Assembly: GCA_947302435.1 (NCBI GenBank)
Contig: CAMYVQ010000004.1
Coordinates: forward strand, 27,783 to 91,782
DNA: 64,000 nucleotides
Direction of reading: 5' to 3'
Source of the DNA: an uncultured Prevotella sp.
Lineage (GTDB): Bacteria; Bacteroidota; Bacteroidia; Bacteroidales; Bacteroidaceae
Every line of letters begins with the position of its first letter. The stretch's first letter is position 1. Positions 5,537 through 61,599 of the stretch are shown piece by piece. The notes beneath the pieces were generated by a model, which had not been told where the DNA came from, did not search any database, and worked only from the letters and a program-made list of their open reading frames with translations. The position numbers and the translations under genes are program-made.

Positions 5537-5668
5537 TATTGATATTGTTTGATCCCCCGATTGAATAAGAATGACCACACCATTCCATATCAACAACGGC
5601 GTGATTTGATATAAACAACGATACAATCCAATACAAACAGCGATGTTGATGATTTAACAGCAAATTAA
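5537..5668. repeat. 22-bp-period degenerate array upstream of gyrB
   Basis: tattgatattgtttgatccccc / gattgaataagaatgaccacac / cattccatatcaacaacggcgt / gatttgatataaacaacgatac / aatccaatacaaacagcgatgt / (weak sixth unit). Confidence 0.6.
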
Positions 5669-15672: not shown

Positions 15673-16600
15673 GGGGACGGTTCTGAATGATCACATTTTT
15701 CTCTCATCTGTTTTCCTTTTTATTTTTTGAACTACACCAAAGCTGATGCCTGTGATACGGGCAATCTGACGAATGTCTCCGCCTGCCAAACACAGGTCAG
15801 CCAAGACAACATTACGCTGCTCCTTTTCCAAGGATTGCAGCTCGTGAGGGTTCCTCATCCCATAAGATTCCTTTAGGATGGTTCGTAGATTTTCATCGCT
15901 AACAGAGAAACGTCCATCGTTTTCAATGTCAAGAATATATAGGCTTTCGTCAACAGGCGTCTCAACAAACGCCTTCAGTTCGGCGAATGGAATATGTTTG
16001 ATGACAGAGCCGATCTTGCATAGGCCGTTGGTCACTGTTGTATGTCGTTCGTACTCCTTCCAGCTACTCCAGGGATAGTCCCGTATATTATTGACGAGTC
16101 CTGCCTTGACTGGATTTTGGTGGATATACCTCATAAATATCAAGAAGTAGGACATCTCGTTGACTGGCTCACTTTTGAAACGGTCTTGAAAGAGGTGGCC
16201 GTTACGGTCATATTTCTTGTTGTAATAACGGGCATAGGAAACGCCTAAACGCTTGATGGTCTCACCGATGCTCTCATCTTTCTCCTGTATAAGCAGGTGA
16301 ACATGGTTGCTCATCAGACAATAGGCATAGATGGTGCAAAGTCCAGGTAGAGGCATGCCATTGTCGTCATGTCTTATACATAGTGCATGCAGACAGCCCA
16401 GCAACCGTAGATAATCCTCTTCATCCTCGAAGATGTTCTGACGATTGATGCCGCGGAGCATCACATGATAGATGCCCGTCCCATCTTGTCTTCGTGCCTG
16501 TCGTGCCATTACATTAACTATATACGACTACAAAAGTACACAATTATTATGCTTCTGCCAAATGTTTGGACAGAAAAATGATCATTCAGTCCCGTCCCCA
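15673..16600 (-). mobile_element. RAYT unit: Y1 transposase gene bounded by inverted GGGGACGG..CTGAATGATCA repeats
   Basis: Left end GGGGACGGTTCTGAATGATCACATTTTT (15673-); right end reads TGGGGACGGGACTGAATGATCATTTTTCTG on the minus strand (16571-16600). Confidence 0.7.
15691..16509 (-). CDS. REP-associated tyrosine transposase (Y1_Tnp / IS200-like)
   Basis: MARQARRQDGTGIYHVMLRGINRQNIF..., YCLMSNHVHLLIQE (HxH), GVSYARYYNKKYDRNGHLFQDRFKSEPV, YIHQNPVKAGLV. Confidence 0.95.
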   Translation of the reverse strand: MARQARRQDGTGIYHVMLRGINRQNIFEDEEDYLRLLGCLHALCIRHDDNGMPLPGLCTIYAYCLMSNHVHLLIQEKDESIGETIKRLGVSYARYYNKKYDRNGHLFQDRFKSEPVNEMSYFLIFMRYIHQNPVKAGLVNNIRDYPWSSWKEYERHTTVTNGLCKIGSVIKHIPFAELKAFVETPVDESLYILDIENDGRFSVSDENLRTILKESYGMRNPHELQSLEKEQRNVVLADLCLAGGDIRQIARITGISFGVVQKIKRKTDERKM

Positions 16601-16856: not shown

Positions 16857-18155
16857 TTATGCTAATAGCTGGAGATTGTTTTCTATCTCTGCGATATGGT
16901 TATCCTTTACACCGCAGTCTTGAGCGATGGTGCGCCAATGGCTGACTGCATCGACAATCTCGTCGATAATCTCTGAACTGCGACGGATTCCCATCTTTTC
17001 ACCAACAGTAAGCAGATCCTGCCGCATAAAATCGTCTTGCTTACCATTCAGCGATAACTGATGTTGTCCAACCCATCTTCCCCCTGGCTTGTATGAGTAA
17101 CACAGATCGTAAGCGGGAGCTAACTCCCATTTGCCCTGACGATCCATCAGGAACGAGAAGTTCTTTGTATGGTCGTCGTTGTTTCTGGCTACGACATTAA
17201 ATACCATTCTGCGATACAGTTGCAGCGTGGCATCCATATTAAGATTCATCTTACGGATAATGCCGAAAATCTCCTCGTACGAATGGCGTTGGTCTCTGTC
17301 GAGATGGGCCAGACCGGCAACCGTCTGCATGTGAATCTTTTCGCCATCGTTTGTACGATCAAAGCGGCGAGTCATAAAATGATGATTATCACCTTCGCTA
17401 AGTAATCTGCATTCGGCCATGTTTATACCGCAAGCTTTAGCCATTTGAGAATAAGCATACTCTACATTTCCAATCCCCTGAGGATTTTCCATGATCGATC
17501 CATGTTCAGAATAGGTAACACCATCAAACTTTAGCAGCCAATAGCCAAAACCTTCAGGAGCCTTCACCTGTCCTGAGCGCACTTCGTTTGTCTTCTCGTT
17601 GTAGGCTATGATGGCTTTTGGTTTGGCACCACCAGCCGATGTACCAACGCGCAGAATATCAAGTATAGTTTTGTCTTGCTGGAACATACGCTCCTGAAAG
17701 GCTTCTCGCTTTGTAAAAATGTCCTCGGCCAATCGTGTTAACTCATCGATATAAATCTCGGTCGACTCATTCAGCGCGTCAGCGGCCTTGCTTGGCTCAA
17801 ACTCCAAGGCTCCCATACCTCGCTGTCCAACATAGCACAATCGTTCTAATGGTGTTATCTCGCCTATAGGCAATCCCTGACGAGTAAACCACTCTGTAAT
17901 AATCTGATTACCAAATTTATCGGGTAGCGCGTCGGCTATTAATCCTGGCAGGCCCTTAAAACAGTCTGTTCGATTGGCTGGAAAGGAAAAAGGACGATTT
18001 CCCAAAGATAAAGGCATTGTGAGCGGAGCTGGTTCGATGCCATTACGCCTAAAACTATTATCATATTCGAAAACAGCCATCCCCGTAGCATTGTCCCATA
18101 CTAGCGAGCCTACCATTTGTCCCCATAGTTTAACGTCAACAATTAAGTCGTCCAT
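16857..18155 (-). CDS. hipA: HipA-type serine/threonine kinase toxin
   Basis: NDDHTKNFSFLMD, MTRRFDR, GSPWYxK-equivalent region GTSAGGAKPKAI. Confidence 0.93.
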   Translation of the reverse strand: MDDLIVDVKLWGQMVGSLVWDNATGMAVFEYDNSFRRNGIEPAPLTMPLSLGNRPFSFPANRTDCFKGLPGLIADALPDKFGNQIITEWFTRQGLPIGEITPLERLCYVGQRGMGALEFEPSKAADALNESTEIYIDELTRLAEDIFTKREAFQERMFQQDKTILDILRVGTSAGGAKPKAIIAYNEKTNEVRSGQVKAPEGFGYWLLKFDGVTYSEHGSIMENPQGIGNVEYAYSQMAKACGINMAECRLLSEGDNHHFMTRRFDRTNDGEKIHMQTVAGLAHLDRDQRHSYEEIFGIIRKMNLNMDATLQLYRRMVFNVVARNNDDHTKNFSFLMDRQGKWELAPAYDLCYSYKPGGRWVGQHQLSLNGKQDDFMRQDLLTVGEKMGIRRSSEIIDEIVDAVSHWRTIAQDCGVKDNHIAEIENNLQLLA

Positions 18156-18161
18156 CGTCGT

Positions 18162-18467
18162 TTAATTTTCTTTTTTATGTCGTATTCTCTGTACCTTTTT
18201 ACCTTGCATCTTCCGCATTTGTAGCGGACTGATACTGAGTTCGGGCAGTAGGACTTCCAGATTTTCGAGTAGCCCCATTGTTCTTAATATGCTTATAAAT
18301 AATAAGGTAGAAATAGGATTACCCTGTTCCACTCTTACGATTGTTCCCATACTTACGCCCGACTTTTTAGCCAGTTCGCTCTGGGTCATTTCCATCCTTA
18401 TGCGATAATCACGCATTCTGCGTCCTATCTTCTGCAGGATAGTTGGGTCACTTAATTCTGTCCACAT
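18162..18467 (-). CDS. hipB: HipB-like XRE-family antitoxin
   Basis: XRE HTH RMEMTQSELAKKSGVSMGTIVRVEQG; immediately upstream of hipA. Confidence 0.9.
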   Translation of the reverse strand: MWTELSDPTILQKIGRRMRDYRIRMEMTQSELAKKSGVSMGTIVRVEQGNPISTLLFISILRTMGLLENLEVLLPELSISPLQMRKMQGKKVQRIRHKKEN

Positions 18468-18581
18468 ATCGTTTCTGTTTTTGTTCGCAAAGATAATATA
18501 ATTTCTAATATATTGCAAACAAAACATTAAAAAGTTATTTAATTTACATAGTATTATAAATTACTAAAAAGATTAAGGTGA

Positions 18582-18785: not shown

Positions 18786-18964
18786 TAGCCCCCTAAGTTC
18801 TTGGACGAGCCAAGCGGCTAAGCCGAGCGAGGGGGATGGGGGTCTGAACAGGCCCAAAAGAAAAAGTGATTATTAACAATATTATTAATAACGGGTGGTC
18901 GTTCAGACCCCCAACCCCCTCGCTCGGCTTAGCCGCTTGGCTCGTCCAAGAACTTAGGGGGCTA
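18786..18964. repeat. MITE-like long inverted repeat in the cysK leader
   Basis: 64-bp arms, one mismatch, about 50-bp AT-rich centre; ends TAGCCCCCTAAG...GGGGGTCTGAAC. Confidence 0.95.
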
Positions 18965-22573: not shown

Positions 22574-22727
22574 GTTATTTTATGAATGATGTCGCGATTT
22601 AAACGGAATGTGCCGGTAGTTCATTTTGAATCGTTTTACAAAGTCGTCGAGTTTGTGTTACAAAGTCGACGAGTTTGTCTCACAAAGTCGACGACTTTGT
22701 AAACTCATTTCATTTGAATGCCAGAAT
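22574..22727. repeat. 22-bp-period array in the divergent pta/epimerase intergenic region
   Basis: Seven in-phase units, including three ACAAAGTCG(A/T)CGA(G/C)TTTGT near-palindromes at 22638, 22660 and 22682. Confidence 0.85.
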
Positions 22728-37332: not shown

Positions 37333-37362
37333 AACTATGAACTATGAATTATGAACTATGAA

Positions 37363-38514
37363 CTAGAAAATCACCTTCGTTCCTTCGCTCAGTTTCTGAT
37401 AACCTTCTGTGACAATACGGTCACCGATGGTCAGACCGTCAATGACGTTAATATAATTGCCCTGTGTCTGACCGATCGTCACAGTTGTGCGATGAGCCGT
37501 GCTGTCCTTGCCCACAGTCCACACAAACAGACTGCCGTCAGCCGGACGACTGGTGCTCACCGTCGGACGACTGGTACTCACCGTCGGACGACTGCTGCTC
37601 ACCGTCGGACGACTGGTACTCACCGTCGGACGACTGGTGCTCACCGTCGTCTTCTGTACGGCAGTCACAGGAACCAAGAGTCGTCCCGTATGTTGCGACT
37701 GTGTCGCAACAAACTGAACTGATGCCACCATCCCCGGCAGCAGCTTACGATCGCCGTTTGCCACATTAATTCTTATATCATACGTATGCGTGAGGGCATC
37801 GGCCTGCACCCCCTTCTCAATCCGGCCTCCCTGATAACGGCCATTGATGGCCTCTACCAGAACAGTCGTTGGGGTACTGGCATTGACAGCTCCGATCTCC
37901 GCCTCGGGAACTGCCACTTTCACCTTTACTGTCGAGATGTCAAGGATATTCACAACAGCCTGCGACGGTAAAGCTGTCTCACCTGCACCAATCAGTTTCT
38001 TGCCTATGACACCACTGACAGGAGCTAACAGCCGACAGTCGGCCAGGTTCTTTCGAGCCACCTCCAATTGCGACTTGGCCTGAGCCACCTTGCTCTGTAT
38101 TTCCACCCACTGAACCTCGGGCAACGACCCATTGTCGTGCAACATCTTGTATCGCTCCAAGGCATCGTTGGCCTGTGTCATCTGCGCCTCGGCACCGCTC
38201 AGTAAGTTGCGGGCCTGCATGTCGTCCATCTCCGCAATCAGTTGGCCTTTGCTTACGACCTGGCCTTCGTTCACCAGCACGCTTTTTACCACGCCCATGC
38301 CAGTAAAACTCACTGCGGTAGCCTCGCGTTCTTCCACAATGCCCACATACGTCTGGGCATTATCCACCATACCAGGCGACACCACCTGTGTTTTCACTCT
38401 CGTAGGAGCCGTCACGTACTGCTCCTTCTTGTCTCCATCGCTCGGCTTTGCCGCTTGCTTTTGGCAAGAACCCAGCAATATGACTGACAACAGTATCAAT
38501 AATTCCTTTTTCAT
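37363..38514 (-). CDS. RND efflux periplasmic adaptor subunit (lipoprotein)
   Basis: Lipobox LLGSCQKQ; barrel-sandwich/HlyD motifs; upstream of the permease. Confidence 0.93.
   Translation of the reverse strand: MKKELLILLSVILLGSCQKQAAKPSDGDKKEQYVTAPTRVKTQVVSPGMVDNAQTYVGIVEEREATAVSFTGMGVVKSVLVNEGQVVSKGQLIAEMDDMQARNLLSGAEAQMTQANDALERYKMLHDNGSLPEVQWVEIQSKVAQAKSQLEVARKNLADCRLLAPVSGVIGKKLIGAGETALPSQAVVNILDISTVKVKVAVPEAEIGAVNASTPTTVLVEAINGRYQGGRIEKGVQADALTHTYDIRINVANGDRKLLPGMVASVQFVATQSQHTGRLLVPVTAVQKTTVSTSRPTVSTSRPTVSSSRPTVSTSRPTVSTSRPADGSLFVWTVGKDSTAHRTTVTIGQTQGNYINVIDGLTIGDRIVTEGYQKLSEGTKVIF
37543..37647 (-). repeat. 21-bp tandem repeat (5 copies) encoding TVSTSRP
   Basis: cggacgactggtgctcaccgt repeated. 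Confidence 0.95.
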
Positions 38515-38677: not shown

Positions 38678-39589
38678 ATGAAACAGCATGAAGAAGTAAC
38701 ATTTCAGACATTAGCCAACAATGAGGACATTCAGATTGGCTATTCCGATAACGACATTGTGGTCGTTGACAGTATTCAGCAATTTACCGAGGTCAATACC
38801 GCCCACGTGGCCATGAATGCTGTCATCATCTGCACCAACGGCAAGGTACAGGCCCAGATGAATGGCATACAAATGGAACTGCACAAGAACCAGGTGGCCA
38901 TCGTACCCCAGAACGTGACGGTGACCGATGTGATGGTCAGCCCCGACTTCGACCTGAAAGGCCTGTTCCTTACCAACCGCATCCTACGTAGTTTCCTGCG
39001 TGAGAAAATCAGCATCTGGAACGACATGATGTATATCCATCGCCAGCATATCGTGACGATGGCCGAAGACGAAATCGTATTCTATACCCACTTCTACGAC
39101 ATGCTGACACTGACCATCGCTAAGGGAAAGGGCAATCCCCTACATACCGATATCGTACAGTCGTTGCTGCGGTCGGCAGTGCTTGGCCTATGTGGCACCA
39201 TGCAACAAATGCTGTCGACAACGGACAACCAACTTTCAACTCCGAACGCCCAACAGTCAACCGGCAAAAGCCATTTCCAGTGTTTTCTTGACCTGCTGCA
39301 TTCTACTGGAGTCAAGCATCGCACGGTGGAAGCTTATGCCAACGAACTCTGCATCTCGCCTAAATATCTTACCGTTATCTGCAAGAAGAATTCAGGTAAG
39401 ACGGCCAACGAATGGATTACGGAACATGTATTAGAGGACATCCGCTACTATCTGAAGCAGACCGACCTTAGCATCAAACAAATTTGCAACCAGTTAGGCT
39501 TCCCCAACCCATCGTTCTTCGGCAAGTATGTAAAGGACCACTTCGGCATGACTCCCATAGCGTTCAGAAACAGCAAAATTCGTGTTTAG
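38678..39589 (+). CDS. AraC family transcriptional regulator
   Basis: Two HTH motifs: VEAYANELCISPKYLTVICKKNSGKTANEWI; LSIKQICNQLGFPNPSFFGKYVKDHFGMTPIAFR. Confidence 0.93.
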   Translation: MKQHEEVTFQTLANNEDIQIGYSDNDIVVVDSIQQFTEVNTAHVAMNAVIICTNGKVQAQMNGIQMELHKNQVAIVPQNVTVTDVMVSPDFDLKGLFLTNRILRSFLREKISIWNDMMYIHRQHIVTMAEDEIVFYTHFYDMLTLTIAKGKGNPLHTDIVQSLLRSAVLGLCGTMQQMLSTTDNQLSTPNAQQSTGKSHFQCFLDLLHSTGVKHRTVEAYANELCISPKYLTVICKKNSGKTANEWITEHVLEDIRYYLKQTDLSIKQICNQLGFPNPSFFGKYVKDHFGMTPIAFRNSKIRV

Positions 39590-39594
39590 CGGAC

Positions 39595-39726
39595 AAACGA
39601 TATTGAATGATGTCGTCGTTGGGCTTGAATGATGTTGTCATTCAATATCAATGATGCCGCCATTCAATATCAATGACGGGATCATTGATATTGAATGGCG
39701 GCACAAAAGAACATCAATGGTGGAAA
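39595..39726. repeat. 22-bp-period array between convergent araC and susD
   Basis: Six in-phase units at 39595, 39617, 39639, 39661, 39683 and 39705. Confidence 0.85.
39655..39703. terminator. Perfect 22-bp-stem hairpin within the array; possible bidirectional terminator
   Basis: TGCCGCCATTCAATATCAATGA cggga TCATTGATATTGAATGGCGGCA. Confidence 0.55.
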
Positions 39727-39731
39727 GGGGC

Positions 39732-41627
39732 TTAGAAACCGATCTTTCCGTTCCAGTTGAGATACCAGTTAGTGCGGTCGCTCAGATCCTTTTTCAGCTC
39801 ACCCTGCACCTCGGCACGCTTGGCCTCGCCGCGACGGGCGGTGATGAGCTTCACCATGGCGGCACCGGGATTGGACTGACGCATGGCGTAGCGCATCAGG
39901 TCGTAGAAACGGGTGCCCTCGAAAGCGAACTCCAGTGCGCTCTCGTTCAGGATCAGACTGTCGACGAAAGCCTGCTGCTCGGCAATGGGCACGGCCACAT
40001 TCTTGGTGGGGTCAGCCGGGTTAGGCACCGAGTCGACGAGCTGATAGTAGGCGTTCATCGGGGTGTAGCCCGAACCGCGCGAGTGCATACCCATCGTATT
40101 GGCAGCATCGGTGGCGGTACCGGTCATGTGCTTGTCGGTGAACAGGCGATAGCTGGCAGGGAACTTCATGTTCAGGTTGACCATCTTCAGCGAGTCTTCC
40201 TTGCTGACGGTGGGATAGACATACTTCTCCATCACCTCGTCGTTCAGGCCCGTGGCGAGAATCTGGAATGCCATACGGGGGAAGCCGGCCATGTTGAGGG
40301 CCTCGGCCATGCGCAGATAGACCATCTGACGGCGCAGGACATGGATGTTGCGGCTCTGATACTTGAGGATGTACTGGTAGTTGTCGATGCGGCGAGTGTC
40401 GCCGTCGCCATAGGACACATAGACGTTGCCATACTGAGGCCATACCGACGACAGGCGCAGGTCGCCCGAACGATAATCGCTCAGACCTTCGGGAGCGTAG
40501 GTGGCAATGGTGGCATCGCGATTGATATTGCAATACTTCTGGGCAGCCGACAGGTTGATCAATCCCTGCGAGGGAACCAGACTGACCTGATAGCTATTGT
40601 TCAATGTGGAATTGAACAAGTCTCTCAAGGCACTGTAGTTCTTGTCGGAGGGCAGCGAGTCACCCGGAATCACCGTGATCAGCTCGCTCTCACGCTCATA
40701 GGTCTCTTCGTTTCTGGAAGCGAACTGCGACGAGAAGGTATTCACGTTCATGAGGTAGTTGCTGGTTCCGACGGGCCAGTAACTGCGGACCGTACCCGTG
40801 GGATAGGCTGTTTCGCTACCATTGCGGCGGCTGATGTAGTTGTAGTACCACAGGGCAGCCTGACGATACTCTTCCGCGCTCTGCGTGGAGCTGGCCAACC
40901 AAAGGTGGAGGTCGCCTAACAGCACGCTCATGGGGAAGAAGAAGAAACGCGAGTCGAGACTCTGGATCTTACCGTACATCGGGGTGGCCGTCGTGATGTC
41001 GAATGCCTCGCTGACGTAAGTGCCCGTAAGCTTCTGCAAATCGTCGATGAAGTAGCGGCAGATGTCCTCAAGCGTATAACGGGGATGTTCGCCCTCGGCA
41101 TCCTCCTGACTGAGGATCGGCTCGGTGACGAAAGGCACGCTGCCATAGTTGAGTGCCAACTGCAGATAGGTCCAGGCACGGATGCCCTTCACCACACCAT
41201 ACTCACGCATGAAGATATAGTCGTTGCGGCTGTTGCGCAGGGCCGTATCGGCATGGGCGATGTAATAGTTACAGTTGTTGATCACGGCATAGTAGTCGCG
41301 TGGGGCATTGTACTTGTTGTCGTCGCCGACATTGAAGACCGACAGGTCCTTCAGGTCGGCATCGGCGATATTGGTCACGTCGACCAGGTCGCCGCGCACC
41401 TCTCCAAAGAGGATGGTGCGGTCGCCCAAGGCCTGCAGCTTCGACAAGATGCCCGTCACGGAATAGAGCGTATCGACAGCATTGTTGAGATGCTCGCTGC
41501 CTGCATAGATGACGTGGTCGGACTCCTGCTCGAAGAAATCCTCACAGGAAGTGAAGAGAAAAGTGGAGAGAGGAAAGAGGAGGGAGAATACTCCTGCTAC
41601 CACCTTGTTATTTATCTTTGTAATCAT
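39732..41627 (-). CDS. RagB/SusD family nutrient uptake lipoprotein
   Basis: Lipobox FTSCEDFFEQESD; C-terminal ALEFAFEGTRFYDLMRYAMR. Confidence 0.93.
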   Translation of the reverse strand: MITKINNKVVAGVFSLLFPLSTFLFTSCEDFFEQESDHVIYAGSEHLNNAVDTLYSVTGILSKLQALGDRTILFGEVRGDLVDVTNIADADLKDLSVFNVGDDNKYNAPRDYYAVINNCNYYIAHADTALRNSRNDYIFMREYGVVKGIRAWTYLQLALNYGSVPFVTEPILSQEDAEGEHPRYTLEDICRYFIDDLQKLTGTYVSEAFDITTATPMYGKIQSLDSRFFFFPMSVLLGDLHLWLASSTQSAEEYRQAALWYYNYISRRNGSETAYPTGTVRSYWPVGTSNYLMNVNTFSSQFASRNEETYERESELITVIPGDSLPSDKNYSALRDLFNSTLNNSYQVSLVPSQGLINLSAAQKYCNINRDATIATYAPEGLSDYRSGDLRLSSVWPQYGNVYVSYGDGDTRRIDNYQYILKYQSRNIHVLRRQMVYLRMAEALNMAGFPRMAFQILATGLNDEVMEKYVYPTVSKEDSLKMVNLNMKFPASYRLFTDKHMTGTATDAANTMGMHSRGSGYTPMNAYYQLVDSVPNPADPTKNVAVPIAEQQAFVDSLILNESALEFAFEGTRFYDLMRYAMRQSNPGAAMVKLITARRGEAKRAEVQGELKKDLSDRTNWYLNWNGKIGF

Positions 41628-41662
41628 AATTTTCAATTTTCAATTTTCAATTTTCAATTCAA

Positions 41663-44948: not shown

Positions 44949-46703
44949 TTACTCTTCACGCGGTTTCAGGATGATGCAGTCAATGCGCATGGTGCGCTGA
45001 TAGGCTCCTGCATTCACTTCGGCATCAGTAACGTAGGTGCTCACCTTCAGTGTCGCCTGAGGATCGCTCTCCGTCACGCCATAGGAACAGACATCGAACT
45101 TGTGTCCGGCTTTCACCAGCAACATATCGACAGAGTCCTTTTGGGTCTCAACGGGAGTATAGAACGTCTCCTTCTTGGCCTTTCCGTCCTTGCCACGATA
45201 GCCCAACTCGAACAAGAGCTTGATGGGAGCACGGTCGATGTCGACGGCGGCCGTATCGCCGGCAAGGCCGGTAGCCGTCCTTACGTAAATGTCGTAGGGG
45301 ACATTCGACATCACTTCGGGAATCCAGAAGATGACCTCATGCTGGGTGTTACCACCGTCGACCAACTGCGTGAACTCCACGAAAGAGTGGCCGGAAATCT
45401 TATTGTAGTAAGGGTTGTCCGAGTCAACCTTCACCGTCGTTGCCAGCACGGTCTCAATGGTATCCTTCTTCACGGTCTTCTTCACAAGCTCCTTGATGGC
45501 CTTCGGGCTTTCAGCCTCCACGATGATGTCGTGCATGAAGGTCTGCTGCGGCTCGAACTTCCAGTTGCTGGTCTTCATCACCTGACCGTTGCTGCACTGC
45601 ACATTGGTGGTGCCGGCCATGATGCCCTGCATAGGCTTCTGATACTGATAGTAGGCCAGCGTGTCGGCTCCCCACTTGTATTCACGCATCTCGTATTCCA
45701 CGGCATTGGTTGACATGGCTGAGTCGGCCAGCATCTTGTCGGTGTTCAGCGTGCGGCTGAAGACGGTACCCTTCATGATGGCCATACGGATATTGGTGTA
45801 GGTCAGCGAATCGACATCGCCCTTGGTGAGGTCCTTTTCAATGGCCTTGTCGTAATTGAAGTAAGGAGTGTACTTCTCGACCAGTGCGTCCCAGACCTCG
45901 TTGGTCGGTGTCACCATCCAGTAGGTACTGTCCTCTGAGTTCAGCTCTGCATCGAGGGCGTCATAGTCGAACAGCGTGTTCTCCTGCACCATCACCGAGT
46001 CGGAATAGACGGTCTCACCGTCGCGGATGCTGTCGGGCACGCTTCGCTCGGCATCGAATTCCAGTCGGTAGTGACGGGAGTTATAGAAGAACTCGCTCAT
46101 GTTCTTCAGGTCGTCGTCCTTCTTCAAGTACTCAAACACGTTCGCATAGTAAGGCACCACCTTGTTCAAGGTGAAGAGCACACCATTACTATAGAGGGCA
46201 TTGCTCGAAGCCAGGTCTATGCCCGAGAACTGTGCATGGTCGAGGGCGTGGTGCTTCCCGTTCATGGTGGTGAGGGTGTCTGTGCGGCCCTCGGCCACCG
46301 AATAGTTATAGAGCGAGATGTGGTTCTTCACGAACTCCTTCACCACGGTATTGTCCTCTTCGCGCACAGAGTTGGCTTTCTCCTGCTGGTAGAGGGCAAT
46401 CATCGACTGGGCTTCTGTCTCGCTGAAAGAGGCATTGGTGGGAGCGAAGACCGTGAACACCTGACTACCCTTGAGCGAACGGTCATAGCCTGTGGCCTCG
46501 ACAACACTGGCAAAATTGCTCAGTTCGGAATTGCCCTTGATGGCTTCCCACAGTGAACCTTGGTTCATGTTCGCGCCTGAAGCCACCCCTTCATAGTGGT
46601 CGTCCCACTTGTCGGAGCATGCCGTGATGACTGCGGCAGTGCCGCAGCCCACGGTAATGGCCATTAGGATTTGTTTTATGCTTTTACTTGTCATATCTTT
46701 CAA
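44949..46703 (-). CDS. Fasciclin (FAS1) domain lipoprotein
   Basis: TACSDKWDDHYEG lipobox; ELSNFASVVEATGYDRSLKGSQVFTVFAPTNASFS. Confidence 0.9.
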   Translation of the reverse strand: MKDMTSKSIKQILMAITVGCGTAAVITACSDKWDDHYEGVASGANMNQGSLWEAIKGNSELSNFASVVEATGYDRSLKGSQVFTVFAPTNASFSETEAQSMIALYQQEKANSVREEDNTVVKEFVKNHISLYNYSVAEGRTDTLTTMNGKHHALDHAQFSGIDLASSNALYSNGVLFTLNKVVPYYANVFEYLKKDDDLKNMSEFFYNSRHYRLEFDAERSVPDSIRDGETVYSDSVMVQENTLFDYDALDAELNSEDSTYWMVTPTNEVWDALVEKYTPYFNYDKAIEKDLTKGDVDSLTYTNIRMAIMKGTVFSRTLNTDKMLADSAMSTNAVEYEMREYKWGADTLAYYQYQKPMQGIMAGTTNVQCSNGQVMKTSNWKFEPQQTFMHDIIVEAESPKAIKELVKKTVKKDTIETVLATTVKVDSDNPYYNKISGHSFVEFTQLVDGGNTQHEVIFWIPEVMSNVPYDIYVRTATGLAGDTAAVDIDRAPIKLLFELGYRGKDGKAKKETFYTPVETQKDSVDMLLVKAGHKFDVCSYGVTESDPQATLKVSTYVTDAEVNAGAYQRTMRIDCIILKPREE

Positions 46704-46753
46704 TGTTGAATGTTGATTGTTGAATTTTCAATTCTCCATTTTCAATTCTCTAT

Positions 46754-48895
46754 TTACAGGTCGTCCTCCATCTGGCCGGCACCGCTGATGTCGTAGACAT
46801 TCTTCGGCACAAGTTCCAGATAGTCGAGCATGAACTCATTGTTGTTACCCTGCTTACCGTCGCTGGCTACGCGAATACGGATGTAATAGGGCTTGCTGCA
46901 ATCCATGTAGTTCTGCGACAGGATTCGGCGATAGGTACGCCAGTTGCCCGTCCAACGGGTCATGTCGTCACCATTGGTGTGGAATGTTCCGTAAGGACCA
47001 CGCACGATACCAAGGTTACGGAAGGCCTTCATGCTCTCGGCCAACTGCTCGTTGTCGCTGCGGATCTTGTTGTAGGCGGTGTTGTTCTGGCCTTCGTCCT
47101 CAGCAGGCATCAGCTCGGTGAGTCCCAGCATTTCGGGGTCGGTGATGAAACGGGTCATATCCATAGGAATGCCCTGCGGAATCATGTGGTTGGGATCGTC
47201 GCCAAAGTAGATCTGGGCCACGCCACGGGTACGGAGGGCACAGAAGCCCAAGCGCACCTGCCACTCGCCACTAAACGGCACGGGCGGCAATCGGAGAATG
47301 AAGTCATAGTCGCCGAAGATGTTGAACTCATCGCCCTCGAACGACCAGAAGTTGATGTGCGGACGACGATAGACGAAGGCGCAGTTGCCTCTCAGCTTGA
47401 TGTGATCCAGATAGCCGTCGGGGAAGTAGTAGTTCTTACCATTCTTAGGACTTGCGGACTCGTCGGCGGTGCCGGATGCGTCGTCAACGGTAGGATTACC
47501 CTTTTGGCGTATATCGTTGGTCATGATTTCAGGGAAGATGGTAGCGAAGTCCATGCGGATTCGCATGTTCTGGATCTTCTCCTGCACGTCCTTGCTGAAG
47601 CAGACGATATCGTCGACGTAGAAGTAGTGGCCGTTCAGGGCATCCTGCTCATACTCAGACTCAACATTCTCGGTAATCAGCTGACCCTTGTTCCAGTCCT
47701 GCTCGTCGGGATATTTGGCATCCACACGACGGTTGATGTAACGCTCACGGGCCTTGCTGCTGCCCACATACTTGGGCACGGTCAGCATCTCGATCTTGGC
47801 CATGGTGTGAGGCAGCATGGTCTCATACCAGTCGATGGGGTTCAGCAAATCCTCGTCGTAGCCCAATGTCTTGCCGTCGAGCTTCTTGCCGGGGAAGTTC
47901 AGAATGAGCGGTGTCAGCTTGTCACTGCCGGGCACATAGCGGGTCAGAATCGTGTACTGAATGAGACGGCGCAGCGGGTTCACGCTGTCGGTGAGATTCT
48001 CATACTTATGGCCCTCCTTGTTCACGTCGGCGGGATAGACGGGGTCGTAAATCTCGCACGCCTTGTCATAGAGCTGGCGCAGCGACTCGATGTTGTACTT
48101 ATCCTTCAGCACGGAGTTCGGCGTGACAAAGAATGTGAAAGCCGTCTTCTTCGTGTCAGGCACCCAGGCAACCTCTTTCCAGAAGTCGGAAGTATAATAG
48201 TACTTCTCATGGGACTTGGGATCCCAAGAGGTGTCTTCGGGGTCGGTATTGGCAATGTCCTCGCCCACGCCCGTAGCCATCAGTGCATCGTAGAACAGGC
48301 TGATACGGTCGTTGTCCTTCAGCACCTCAAGAATACTGCCGCTCGAAGTCTCCAGCACTTGGTTGATGGGCTGCATGATGCCGTTCTCCACTGAGTCGTC
48401 GCGCAGCTCATAATAGATGTGTGCGCCACGGGTGTTGAGGAACACCACGGCATTCTGGTTCTCGTCGAGTCCGGCGATGGTGGGCAGATAGCGGCGCATC
48501 AGGTTGGCATCGTGCAGCTGCGTGCCGTTCATGTCCATCGTGGAATACATATTGTTCACCAAATGCGTACGGGCAATCGTATCACAATCGGCATCGGTCA
48601 GGTCGGCCAGACTTGCCTTGTTGTGTTTCTTCAGATACTCGTCAAAGGCATCGTTGTCTGGCACGAAACAGGTGTAGTGTCCATAGCTGGCAAGCATGTC
48701 CATCAGATTGGCACGCTCCACCACCGTTGCAAAGTCACTGTACTTCGCATTATTCTTCAGATAGTCGCTGGCCATCTCACCGGTGAAGGTGTAGAAGTTT
48801 TCGCTATCCGGCTCGTCGGAGCATGAGGTCAGTCCGCCCCATGCGAGAGCAGTGGTAATAGCAACCAGGGCAAATATATTATTTTTGATTCTCAT
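46754..48895 (-). CDS. Fasciclin (FAS1) domain lipoprotein
   Basis: LTSCSDEPDSENFYT lipobox; YSDFATVVERANLMDMLASYGHYTCFVPDNDAFDEYLKK. Confidence 0.9.
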   Translation of the reverse strand: MRIKNNIFALVAITTALAWGGLTSCSDEPDSENFYTFTGEMASDYLKNNAKYSDFATVVERANLMDMLASYGHYTCFVPDNDAFDEYLKKHNKASLADLTDADCDTIARTHLVNNMYSTMDMNGTQLHDANLMRRYLPTIAGLDENQNAVVFLNTRGAHIYYELRDDSVENGIMQPINQVLETSSGSILEVLKDNDRISLFYDALMATGVGEDIANTDPEDTSWDPKSHEKYYYTSDFWKEVAWVPDTKKTAFTFFVTPNSVLKDKYNIESLRQLYDKACEIYDPVYPADVNKEGHKYENLTDSVNPLRRLIQYTILTRYVPGSDKLTPLILNFPGKKLDGKTLGYDEDLLNPIDWYETMLPHTMAKIEMLTVPKYVGSSKARERYINRRVDAKYPDEQDWNKGQLITENVESEYEQDALNGHYFYVDDIVCFSKDVQEKIQNMRIRMDFATIFPEIMTNDIRQKGNPTVDDASGTADESASPKNGKNYYFPDGYLDHIKLRGNCAFVYRRPHINFWSFEGDEFNIFGDYDFILRLPPVPFSGEWQVRLGFCALRTRGVAQIYFGDDPNHMIPQGIPMDMTRFITDPEMLGLTELMPAEDEGQNNTAYNKIRSDNEQLAESMKAFRNLGIVRGPYGTFHTNGDDMTRWTGNWRTYRRILSQNYMDCSKPYYIRIRVASDGKQGNNNEFMLDYLELVPKNVYDISGAGQMEDDL

Positions 48896-48920: not shown

Positions 48921-51077
48921 TTAATTATTCTGCTCATAGCTTCCGTTCTCACCGCTACCGAAGGCAGGATTCTGCTTCAGGTTCGTGTTCACTTTCAGCT
49001 CGTTGATATTATAGGGCCAGAAGATGCCGTCCATCTTCGACAAGCGCATACGCACGGCTTCTCCTCCACTCGTCATCTTCTTGACGACAGTGGTAGCAAG
49101 TTTCTCGCTGGTACCCTCGCGCCAAGCCTCACGCACCAAGTCGTAGTAGCGCTTTCCCTCGAAGAGCAACTCACGCTGGCGCTCCGACTGTATCAGTTCC
49201 ACCAAGACGGACTTTGAGCGGTAGTTGTCAAGAGCCAATGTGTCGCTGGTCGTGAGCGTACGGGAAAGTATGGCACGCTTGTTCACGGCATTCACCAAGT
49301 CGAATGCTTGCACAATATACGTCTCATTCTGAGCCAGTGCCGTAGCATCCAGTTTCATGCCCTTCATCAGCTTACCGAAGACGATGACTGCATCGCCGGC
49401 CTTGGGGCGCTTGGCACCCGATTTCGCGATAGCCTTGTTGCCAAGACCCATCACCTCGTTGACCAGCAGTGTCTCTGTGCCACTTTCCTGCACCAGAGTG
49501 AAGGTTGCCTTGCCGGTTTCGTCGTCAATGACGATGTCGTCGCCGATCGTACCTTTGATGAAGTAGTACTTCTCCGATGATTTCGAGATTTCCAGTTCCT
49601 CGATCACACGCAAGGCACGCACCACATCGACGGTGTCCTTCTTGTCTTCCAAGCTGGCATCGGCAGAACCCTTTTGTGTGTTCAGTCTCCAGAGATAGCA
49701 TCCCGGGGCGGTCTTCGGCTCAGGAACATCAGTACCTTGCACCATCAGCTGTGTCAGTGCCTCGGCCTTGAGCAGCATGATGTCGGTGAGACGATAGATA
49801 ATCCAATTGCTCTTGTTCAGGCCTTCCGTCCATTTCGTACTATACGTAGCCTTCGGGTCTTCCGAAGTGCTGGTAGCATCGATAGACAGCGACTGATAGA
49901 CGAACTTGGCAATAGCCTCTGAACCTTCGTGGCATGCCTCATAGTAGCGGGCGTCCCGCTTGTTCTCAAACAGCGTGCCGTTGTCGCCCATCACCACGCT
50001 CGAAGGAGCCACATAGCCACGGGCCACATTGCCATGACCATAGAACAGGTTGACAGCCGTATTCGACAAGGTGTTCTTGTTTTCCGTTTCCTTGCCTGAG
50101 AAGGTCAGCTCGAAAATGGCTTCCTGGCTGTTGCCTGTGATGAACAGGCTATTGTAAGCATTGCCAAAACGGTTGCCCGAATACTCGGAGATGAGGGGGT
50201 AGCCGTTGGTACGCTCCGTATCAGTCTGCGTGAGGCCGCTCATGGAACTTCCTGTTTTGCCGCTCTTAGCCTCTTCCTTCTTGGAAGCGATGACGCGGTT
50301 GGCAGCATTGATACAATTCTGGTAGTCCTTGTTCCAGAGATACATGTCGCAAAGGATGGCATCGATGGCATCCTGCGTGATGCGAGCCGTCTGATAGAGC
50401 GGCTGCGTGGAAGGATAACGCTTCACGGCATCGTTGCGCACACTCTCCAAGTCGGCAATCAACATGTTGAGTGCCTCGTTGAACGGTGTGACAGGCAATT
50501 CCATGGCCTGGTCGTCGTCGATGAAAGCCTCAAAGGAAATAGGCACATCACGGAACGTACGGATGAGGTAGAAATAGCAGAGGTCGCGCAGGGCGGACGC
50601 CTCGGCAATCGTGGCACGAAGTTCGCCAGGGGTATAGCCCGGATCCTTCTCGGCCACCTCAGGGGCATACTTGATGATGGTGTTGCAACGGTTAATGACA
50701 TTGTAGAAGCCCTCCCAGTTGGTATAGTCGTTCGAAGCCGTGAGGTTCTCCTTCAACAGGTTGGTGAGGCTGAGATCCTTGTCAGCATTCAGGCCCACAC
50801 TGATGTTGTCGCTGCGGAACTCTCCCCAGATCATCATGCGGCGCACGACATCGTCACTCTGCATTCGCGAGTAGCAGCCCATCATGATTGCCTCTACATC
50901 GGCCTTTTCATTCCAGAACTGATCCAGTGTGATTTCATTCTGGGGTTCAATCTCCAGGAAGTCAGAGCAACCGGAAAAGAGGAAAGTGGAGAGAGGAGAG
51001 AGGAAAGAGATGAGCACCGCTCCCTTCATCTTCTTATATATATATGTTGTTCTCATAACTTTCATTTCAATTTTCAA
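48921..51077 (-). CDS. RagB/SusD family lipoprotein with an inserted OB-fold-like segment
   Basis: SGCSDFLEIEPQNEITLDQFWNEKADVEAIMMGCYSRMQ; ERQRELLFEGKRYYDLVREAWREG. Confidence 0.93.
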   Translation of the reverse strand: MKIEMKVMRTTYIYKKMKGAVLISFLSPLSTFLFSGCSDFLEIEPQNEITLDQFWNEKADVEAIMMGCYSRMQSDDVVRRMMIWGEFRSDNISVGLNADKDLSLTNLLKENLTASNDYTNWEGFYNVINRCNTIIKYAPEVAEKDPGYTPGELRATIAEASALRDLCYFYLIRTFRDVPISFEAFIDDDQAMELPVTPFNEALNMLIADLESVRNDAVKRYPSTQPLYQTARITQDAIDAILCDMYLWNKDYQNCINAANRVIASKKEEAKSGKTGSSMSGLTQTDTERTNGYPLISEYSGNRFGNAYNSLFITGNSQEAIFELTFSGKETENKNTLSNTAVNLFYGHGNVARGYVAPSSVVMGDNGTLFENKRDARYYEACHEGSEAIAKFVYQSLSIDATSTSEDPKATYSTKWTEGLNKSNWIIYRLTDIMLLKAEALTQLMVQGTDVPEPKTAPGCYLWRLNTQKGSADASLEDKKDTVDVVRALRVIEELEISKSSEKYYFIKGTIGDDIVIDDETGKATFTLVQESGTETLLVNEVMGLGNKAIAKSGAKRPKAGDAVIVFGKLMKGMKLDATALAQNETYIVQAFDLVNAVNKRAILSRTLTTSDTLALDNYRSKSVLVELIQSERQRELLFEGKRYYDLVREAWREGTSEKLATTVVKKMTSGGEAVRMRLSKMDGIFWPYNINELKVNTNLKQNPAFGSGENGSYEQNN

Positions 51078-51091
51078 TTTTCAATCTTCAA

Positions 51092-54000
51092 TTAAAAGTC
51101 AACCGTTACACCCAATGTATAAGAACGCGAACGCGGTGTCTGGGCATTGTCCATAGCGGGATCGTAGCCACCCTGCGAGATGTCGGGGTCGACACCCGAA
51201 TACTTCGTGATGACAAACGGGTTGTTCACACTGGCATAGACATTGATACGGTTCAGTCCGATCCACTTCAGATACTTCTTCTTGATGGAGTAGGACAACT
51301 GGGCATAACCCATACGCAGATAAGAGCCATCCTCCACGAAACGGTCGCTGACCAGCGTGTTATACTGTGAGGAAGCACCATACATGGCACGGGGGATCGA
51401 GGTCACGTCGCCATTCTTACGCCAGCGGTAGTTCACGGCCTGGCTCTGGTTGTCGTTGCCGATCATTGCCTCGGAACGAAGGCGTGCCAGATTCAGGATC
51501 TTGTTACCGAAGCGATAGGTGAACTGCGTGTTCAGACGCCAGTCGCCGTAAGTGAAGGTGAAGCCGAAACCACCCGTCAGCTTAGGCAGTGAAGTACCGA
51601 TATAAACGATATCGAGGGCGTTGATCTGTCCGTCGTGGTTGATATCCTCGTAGATGGCATCACCACCATTGAACTGATAGTTCTTACCCGTACCGTCGTT
51701 GGTGTAGTTGTACATCATGCGGAGCGGCTTGCCGTCAGAGCCATAGACAGGCTTGCCCTGTGCATTGAGCACGATAGGAGCGGTCTTGCCGGAAGCCAAG
51801 AACTCGTTCTCCACCCAATTCCTGTACTCTGCCTCAGTGTTAAATTCACGAAGCTTGTTGCCCACATAGTCGTAGGTGTACTGATAGACACCCAATGAAC
51901 GGAAACCGTAGATAGCACCAAGCGGATTCTGCAGCTGTACGCGGCGCAGCCACTCGGCATTGTTATAGGCAAAGGTAGAGTTCAGACCCTTCAGAATGTA
52001 CTCGTCCATCTCCAAGATGGTGTTCTTGTTGTTACCGAAGTTCGCATTCAGGTCGAAGCCGAACTTGCCTGCCTTCACCAGACCGTTGGTGGTGATATGG
52101 AATTCCCAACCCATGTTGCGCATCTTACCCGAGTTGCGGTAAGGCAGCGTAGCGAAACCGGTGTTTGAAGGAATGCGGTAGTTCTCCATCAGCATGTCGG
52201 TAGTGGTCGACGAATAGGCTTCCAACGTCAGGCGTAAACGTTCACCCTCGAAGAAGGCGAGGTCGACACCGGCATTGTAGGACGACACAATCTGCCAGCG
52301 CAGGTCAGTCAGTCGGATGTTGGAAGGAGCCATTGCCGTCTGGTTCAGATAGCTGCTGGTTGTATTATACTTGGAAGTATAGAGATAGTCAGAACGCGGC
52401 TGGTTACCCACACGACCCCAGCTGGGACGAATGGCCAGCATCGAGAGCACGGGCTTCAGTTTTTCCATCCAAGGCTCGTCACTGATGATCCACTTCAGAG
52501 AGACCGAGGGGAAGTAGCCCCAGCGGTTGTTGGGACCGAACTTCGTCGTGCCGTCGGCACGTACCGTGAAGTCGAACACATAACGCTCCTTGTAAGCGTA
52601 GTGGGCCGACAGCGTGTAGTACATGGAACGCCACTCATTGAACCACGACGACAAACCAGTGATGACACCGCCGGCATCGGGGCTTTCGACACCGCCCGAA
52701 GGCAGGCCGCTACCGCTGGCCGACTGTCCGGTGCTGGAACCTGATGTCAGCTCGAAGCGGCCCATGAACATGGCGCTATGGTCTTTATTGGTAAAGGCGG
52801 GAACGAGGGTCAGGGTCTGCTTGGTGTTGATCGACACGCTCTTTGAAGAACCCGAATAGCTGGTGTTCACACCGTCCTGCCAACCCACGCTGCGCAGTTC
52901 CTGCGGATAGAACGAGTCGTCGTACTGATTGAAGACGTTCATATAGACCGATCCGCGCCAGTTCAACTGCAGGTGATCCTCGTCGGTGCCTAAGAGGTGA
53001 TAGTTGATGATCAGCTCAGGCGACATGTCGTAGGTGCGGCGCTGGTTCTTGGCCAGATTAGCCGAAGCCACGGGGTTCACATAACCTTTCTGGTTGTCCT
53101 TGGCACCAGCCTTCGACTCGTTGAACACGGCACTGCCCGACTGTAGCATGGTATAGTAGCGGTCGGTATTGGCACCCGTCACGGGATCCTGCTCGTAGAT
53201 GCTCATGTTCGGCATCTTGCGCATAGCCAGATCCAGCAGACCGTCGCTGTTCATGTCGTTCTTGGTGTAGGTCAGCGAGAAGTTGGTGCTCACACGGATG
53301 CGCTCACTGATGTTATAGTCAAGGGCTACACGGGTAGAGAAGCGGTTCAGCTTCTGCTTGATAATCGTACCTGTCTCATGGTCGAAACCGCCACCGATAC
53401 GGAACGAGGCTTTCTCGCCACCACCCGAGATGCTGACGTAGTGGTTCTGGCGGAGACCCCACTGTGTGACGGCATCGCGCCAGTCGGTGTTGTTGTTATA
53501 CTGCTGATACTCCGAGAAAGTCGGGTCGTACATCAGTTCGGGGATGTTGGCGGCCTCACTGCTCTGCTGCGGGTTAAAGTAGCTCTCCTTGAGCAGCATG
53601 GTGTAGTCGTCACCGCTCAACAGGTCGTAACCCTTCGGCTGATAGGTGCCGGTGAGCTTCAGCGAGTAGGTGAGTTTCGGTTTGCCTCGTACACCACGCT
53701 TAGTGGTCAGCTCGATGACACCGTTACCACCCTGCGAACCATAGACGGCCGTAGCGGCAGCATCTTTCAGCACGCGGATGTCCGAGATGTCCTCCGGGTT
53801 GATGTTCAGCAGTTCGGCGAACTTCTCCTGGTTGGCCGAGGCCATGTCGAAGTTGTCGAGGTTCACTTCACGGATATTGCCGTCGATCACAATCAGCGGG
53901 TTGGCATCGGTGAGCGAGGAGAGCGAGGACACACCACGCAGACGCATGGTAGAACCCGAACCCAGGTCACCAGAATTACCGATAATATCCAGACCGGCGA

Positions 54001-61467: not shown

Positions 61468-61599
61468 CATTGATATTGATTTATGTCATTATTTATATAA
61501 AATGATGTAATCGTTTGACTTCAATGAGGTGATCATTGAACTTTAATCATGACATCATTTGACTTCATTCCCAACATCATCTATATTGAATGACGGGAA
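61468..61599. repeat. 22-bp-period array upstream of the large secreted protein
   Basis: Six in-phase units at 61468, 61490, 61512, 61534, 61556 and 61578. Confidence 0.75.

Follow-up and report, generated by a model that had tools for sequence, protein, structure and literature searches.

Intergenic arrays of quasi-palindromic boxes at a fixed 22-bp pitch in Prevotella: candidate platforms for a cooperatively binding dimeric protein

The gap between convergent araC and susD genes in a 64-kb stretch of an uncultured Prevotella genome (the whole stretch analysed, here denoted the window) is filled by an array of 22-bp units. The same 22-bp spacing is found in many sampled Prevotella species, whereas the repeated word differs from species to species. 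Judged from sequence, the array would be one of many duplex-DNA platforms for a putative dimeric protein that binds cooperatively, a reading to which we give a probability of just under one half (about 0.48).

Results

The array is located at 39595–39726 and comprises six units, each made of a 15-bp box and a 7-bp spacer; the boxes belong to what we denote family A, and neither the arrays nor the inverted repeat below are assigned a strand. As the preliminary description had stated, the six 22-mers run head-to-tail and in phase, and the array is flanked by the stop codons of two convergent genes, encoding an AraC-type regulator (HTH_18, 38678–39589, + strand) and a SusD/RagB-type protein (39732–41636, - strand). 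Units 3–5 contain a perfect 22-bp inverted repeat (39655–39703) whose arms, 39655–39676 and 39682–39703, are exact reverse complements separated by a 5-nt loop, again as first described. This hairpin is real, but equally strong hairpins are not general across family A. Three further loci in the window had been said to share both the period and the consensus. This holds for a second canonical six-box family-A array at 61468–61592, 3' of pnp (PNPase), and weakly for a degenerate five-box family-A array at 5537–5639. The third locus (22638–22700), located between pta and an epimerase gene in divergent orientation, shares the pitch only and carries a triplet of 19-bp palindromes, ACAAASTCGWCGASTTTGT, here denoted family B. 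The triplet upstream of pta is common to the Prevotella MAG RGIG3782 (denoted G086).

To quantify the period we used the source genome, a 2.63-Mb draft in 97 contigs, of which 1.25 Mb were read and 953 genes called. A stretch was counted at a given lag when its identity reached 58% or more over 55 bp; such stretches occur at lag 22 in 50 of the 349 intergenic segments and, among the other lags below 44, most often at 21 (9). No lag-22 stretch was detected in the 953 genes (1.13 Mb) or in shuffled intergenic DNA, and this comparison excludes chance. A phase-aware profile scan, in which a symmetric 15-bp box is chained at fixed steps, yielded 24 arrays when the step was 22 and no array at steps 18–21 and 23–26. 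Similarly, the pattern CATTSAWRTTSAATG gave 32 matches genome-wide and none with the reversed control. Distances between intergenic dyad centres peak at exact multiples of 11 bp (188 at 11, 150 at 22, 122 at 33 and 79 at 44 bp, over a background of ~30), a lattice that tandem palindromes at 22 bp must give; the distances in coding DNA are flat. The pitch is exactly 22 bp for unrelated boxes both here and in other Prevotella species, and the earlier suggestion that maintenance acts on the period and not on the sequence is thus supported well beyond this window.

Twenty canonical family-A arrays were found, 17 with six boxes and three with five. The box consensus is ~NATTSAWNWTSAATN and the spacer ~RYRNYRY, and the flanks have no sequence in common (mean 0.26 bits). 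The boxes are quasi-palindromic yet polar, and adjacent polar boxes point in the same direction 33 times versus 10 (p=0.0006). Base pairs within the boxes show no covariation, being at or below independence; the inner pair (columns 7 and 9) is Watson-Crick in 38 cases versus 58 expected. Family B is built of ACAAASTCGWCGASTTTGT boxes, three per copy, set at the 22-bp pitch and separated by free NNN spacers. Searched over the whole genome, its pattern gave 257 matches versus 0 in the control; at ~4 matches per triplet, and with 26 copies in 1.25 Mb, this corresponds to ~55–64 copies genome-wide. In 23 copies the spacers are nearly random, while the boxes are constant except for two S positions and the central W; since copies were selected by their box pattern, with spacers and flanks unselected, this box conservation is biased upward. 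In two thirds of the family-B boxes the S pair is a G-G or C-C mismatch, and most of the 23 exact triplets combine one symmetric box with polar boxes (o<< 10, >o< 6). Some triplets are adjoined by family-A-like boxes in the same 22-bp phase, and further families occur at this pitch in the source genome, among them GATTTAGGCTAAATC, TTTGGTAA..TTACCA and GTGTCTGGCTTTG.

Every family-A chain and family-B copy found is intergenic, and most lie behind genes. Arrays are enriched in convergent gaps (15/49 versus 27/264, p=0.0004), and of the 22 in tandem contexts, 18 are closer to the 3' end of the upstream gene (p=0.004). Divergent gaps also contain arrays (6/26 for family B), and a smaller sample of relatives did not show the convergent enrichment. 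The adjoining genes are functionally mixed and thus do not form an ordinary regulon; together with the convergent enrichment and the 3'-proximal position, this led us to reject an ordinary transcription-factor regulon or promoter operator.

We compared the source genome with congeners and with members of other Bacteroidales families, leaving out other genera of its own family. When 20 congeners are pooled, lag 22 is prominent with 26 stretches, a few of which are runs of N; over 20 genomes from other families there is no peak (2 stretches). Elsewhere in GTDB, in a search from which the source genome's own records may be left out, the exact family-B pattern occurs only in the Prevotella MAGs RGIG3782 and RUI320, and it was not found in 35 congeners and 24 other members of the order. 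Relatives carry 22-bp arrays of their own: CCAGCCCCTGG in G141 (99 matches versus 0 in the control, 65 loci), CAAAAGCTAAG in G146 (483 versus 2), AACGGAGCCTCCGTT in G153, AAAAGCGGTGCTTTT in G211, and more, although some congener samples showed none. The loci of G141 get sparser away from the likely origin (Rayleigh p=0.009), and those of G146 tend more weakly the same way (p=0.10); the origin position was inferred from rRNA strand. A replication polarity of CAAAAGCTAAG in G146 was considered and withdrawn: all of the matches listed (at least 100) were on the + strand, and those listed for the triple pattern were + over the whole chromosome with very few on the - strand, so that the bias is one of the listing.

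Orthologous sites show how the arrays change. At a locus beside an HU-HIG gene (L143/L056), the family-B boxes keep 57 of 57 bases, against 1 of 6 for the spacers, and the flanking DNA has diverged. At another site G086 has a ~220-bp array and the source genome none, with no obvious target-site duplication at this single empty site. Thus arrays come and go, and at retained sites the boxes seem to be under constraint in situ. The triplet conserved between the two species adjoins a gene for an HU-HIG DNA-binding protein (L056:2590-3130). In G153 a different box family adjoins a related susD gene at its 3' end, a suggestive observation from a single case.

Discussion

Architectural protein binding, RNA structure and selfish amplification had all been left open as functions. 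The fixed pitch with changing words, the constraint on boxes over spacers, the polarity of the boxes and the absence of covariation point to a protein on duplex DNA with two-turn spacing, and together with the lack of a sense-strand G-U bias they favour protein platforms among the three. A putative sequence-specific protein would bind as one dimer per 15–19 bp quasi-palindromic box and assemble cooperatively; because the 22-bp distance between boxes is about two helical turns, all dimers would be placed on the same side of the helix, where they could touch. Such assemblies might serve nucleoprotein architecture or insulation at the ends of transcription units, rather than promoter control. The words may differ between species because the binding specificity, or the active paralogue, is replaced over time under an unchanged assembly geometry. 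More tentatively, a system that organises (or insulates) the chromosome might extend across Prevotella as a genus, with the 22-bp pitch alone conserved and the word replaced from species to species at dozens of sites; if true, this would be a bacterial parallel to the fast-evolving pairs of satellites and DNA-binding proteins. Several observations count against the platforms. Family B is absent in most relatives yet present in ~60 copies here, which a copying mechanism pictures more easily; some single arrays are far more stably folded than unit-swapped chimeras; and arrays occur in divergent gaps, with no convergent enrichment in the sample of relatives.

Known systems of scattered or repeated binding sites offer partial parallels. 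Iterons of plasmid origins are head-to-tail protein-binding repeats about two helical turns apart; in contrast, the Prevotella arrays are scattered over the whole chromosome and are not at one origin. SlmA, Noc and MatP, proteins of nucleoid occlusion and macrodomain organisation, each use many palindromic sites scattered over the chromosome. The arrays resemble these sites in that they thin out from the likely origin in one Prevotella genome, and differ in their fixed pitch and in a chromosomal bias that is weak in the two genomes (p 0.009 and 0.10).

The main rival is that the arrays are REP/REPIN- or MITE-like non-autonomous elements, in which the boxes would be recognition sites of a transposase, the arrays would be copied into intergenic DNA and the pitch would reflect transposase geometry; we consider this rather unlikely, though a serious alternative. 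REP, BIME and REPIN sequences of Enterobacteria and Pseudomonas are dispersed intergenic palindromic units that form species-specific families and clusters (PMC3116915, PMC3733652). The arrays are likewise dispersed, intergenic, palindromic and multi-copy, with species-specific families, and the site occupied in G086 and empty in the source genome suits mobility, as does the presence of two Y1-transposase genes in the source genome. One of these, a RAYT-like gene, lies inside the window (15691–16509, - strand; 69 bits to NF047646, below the cut-off of 80, and over the cut-off for PF01797). However, whereas REP repeats also flank their RAYT gene, this gene is flanked by an inverted repeat of its own (GGGGACGG..CTGAATGATCA) with no A or B boxes around it, on which ground we rejected it as the mobiliser of the arrays; at the second Y1 locus there is a single A-like match, and neither gene has arrays nearby. 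As for the GTAG or CGTC tag that marks one end of a REP palindrome, GTAG/CTAC occurs in 1 of 97 spacers and CGTC/GACG in only 19 of 97. REP dimers vary in spacing (PMC3733652), whereas the arrays have 3–6 or more units at a fixed 22 bp, with boxes unrelated between species. Boxes that stay intact in situ while the spacers are near random also argue against mobility, and no obvious target-site duplication was seen at the one empty site. Carriage by mobile elements was rejected as well: the family-A and family-B patterns are absent from viral contigs, and no plasmid matched the family-A array. A HipA/HipB-type toxin-antitoxin pair (16857–18527, - strand) adjoins the RAYT-like gene. A parallel within the Bacteroidales is BrickBuilt, a MITE reported in Porphyromonas gingivalis and P. 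gulae, which is intergenic and multi-copy and has head-to-tail 23-bp repeats with a leader, a tail and IS5-type terminal repeats (PMC4596501). The arrays share its order, intergenic location, copy number and head-to-tail repeats of similar length; in contrast, they run at 22 bp, with no arrays at step 23, have no common leader or tail and comprise many box families.

Hairpins acting in RNA and simple slippage fit worse than protein platforms. Transcribed gene-end hairpins, serving as bidirectional terminators or mRNA stabilisers, would agree with the location behind genes, with the very stable folding of several arrays (z to -10) and with the slightly better folding of canonical tandem arrays on the sense strand (8/10). 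This reading is nevertheless improbable: the stems lack the compensatory changes of a structured RNA, sense-strand G-U and A-C pairs are about equal (30 versus 25), mean folding is barely above that of unit-swapped chimeras and several arrays are worse, the boxes are mostly head-to-tail, and the window has no Rfam match. A whole-array hairpin as a conserved feature was rejected, since self-symmetry at fixed centres equals the symmetry between arrays and folding against chimeras is mixed. Neutral minisatellites arising by replication slippage and template switching would explain the near-identical units of some arrays, such as those of G100 and G161, but give no reason why sequences unrelated to each other should share a unit of exactly 22 bp throughout the genus. 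The lack of such arrays in coding DNA, the recurrence of one box at dozens of loci and the period-specific enrichment contradict slippage further, making it very improbable.

The part of the literature covered holds nothing on point on 22-bp repeats in Prevotella. Conserved spacing combined with freely replaced sequence is unusual and makes the geometry separable from the word. The platform reading predicts a DNA-binding assembly that would be recoverable with array DNA. As dozens of copies are present in Prevotella, which are abundant gut, rumen and oral bacteria, the arrays could bear on insulation of gene ends, on how the chromosome folds or on selfish DNA of a new class, and they could confound ordinary searches for repeats and structured RNAs.

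Other repeats were observed beside the arrays. A longer dispersed element of the source genome combines in-phase 22-bp units with a common internal sequence (GAGTGAGAAACAACTGCAACCG ACTTTTCCCATTCTG) and is present in at least seven copies (L007, L009, L010, L013, L022, L024 and L027). Within the window, a near-perfect long inverted repeat (AGCCCCCTAAGTTCTTGGACGAGCC..., 18787–18963) lies directly upstream of a pyridoxal-phosphate enzyme gene. Tandem repeats of 7 bp, many in or near intergenic gaps, are found at 1266–1348, 37333–37365, 41628–41659, 46702–46755 and 50976–51093 and are possible phase-variable tracts.
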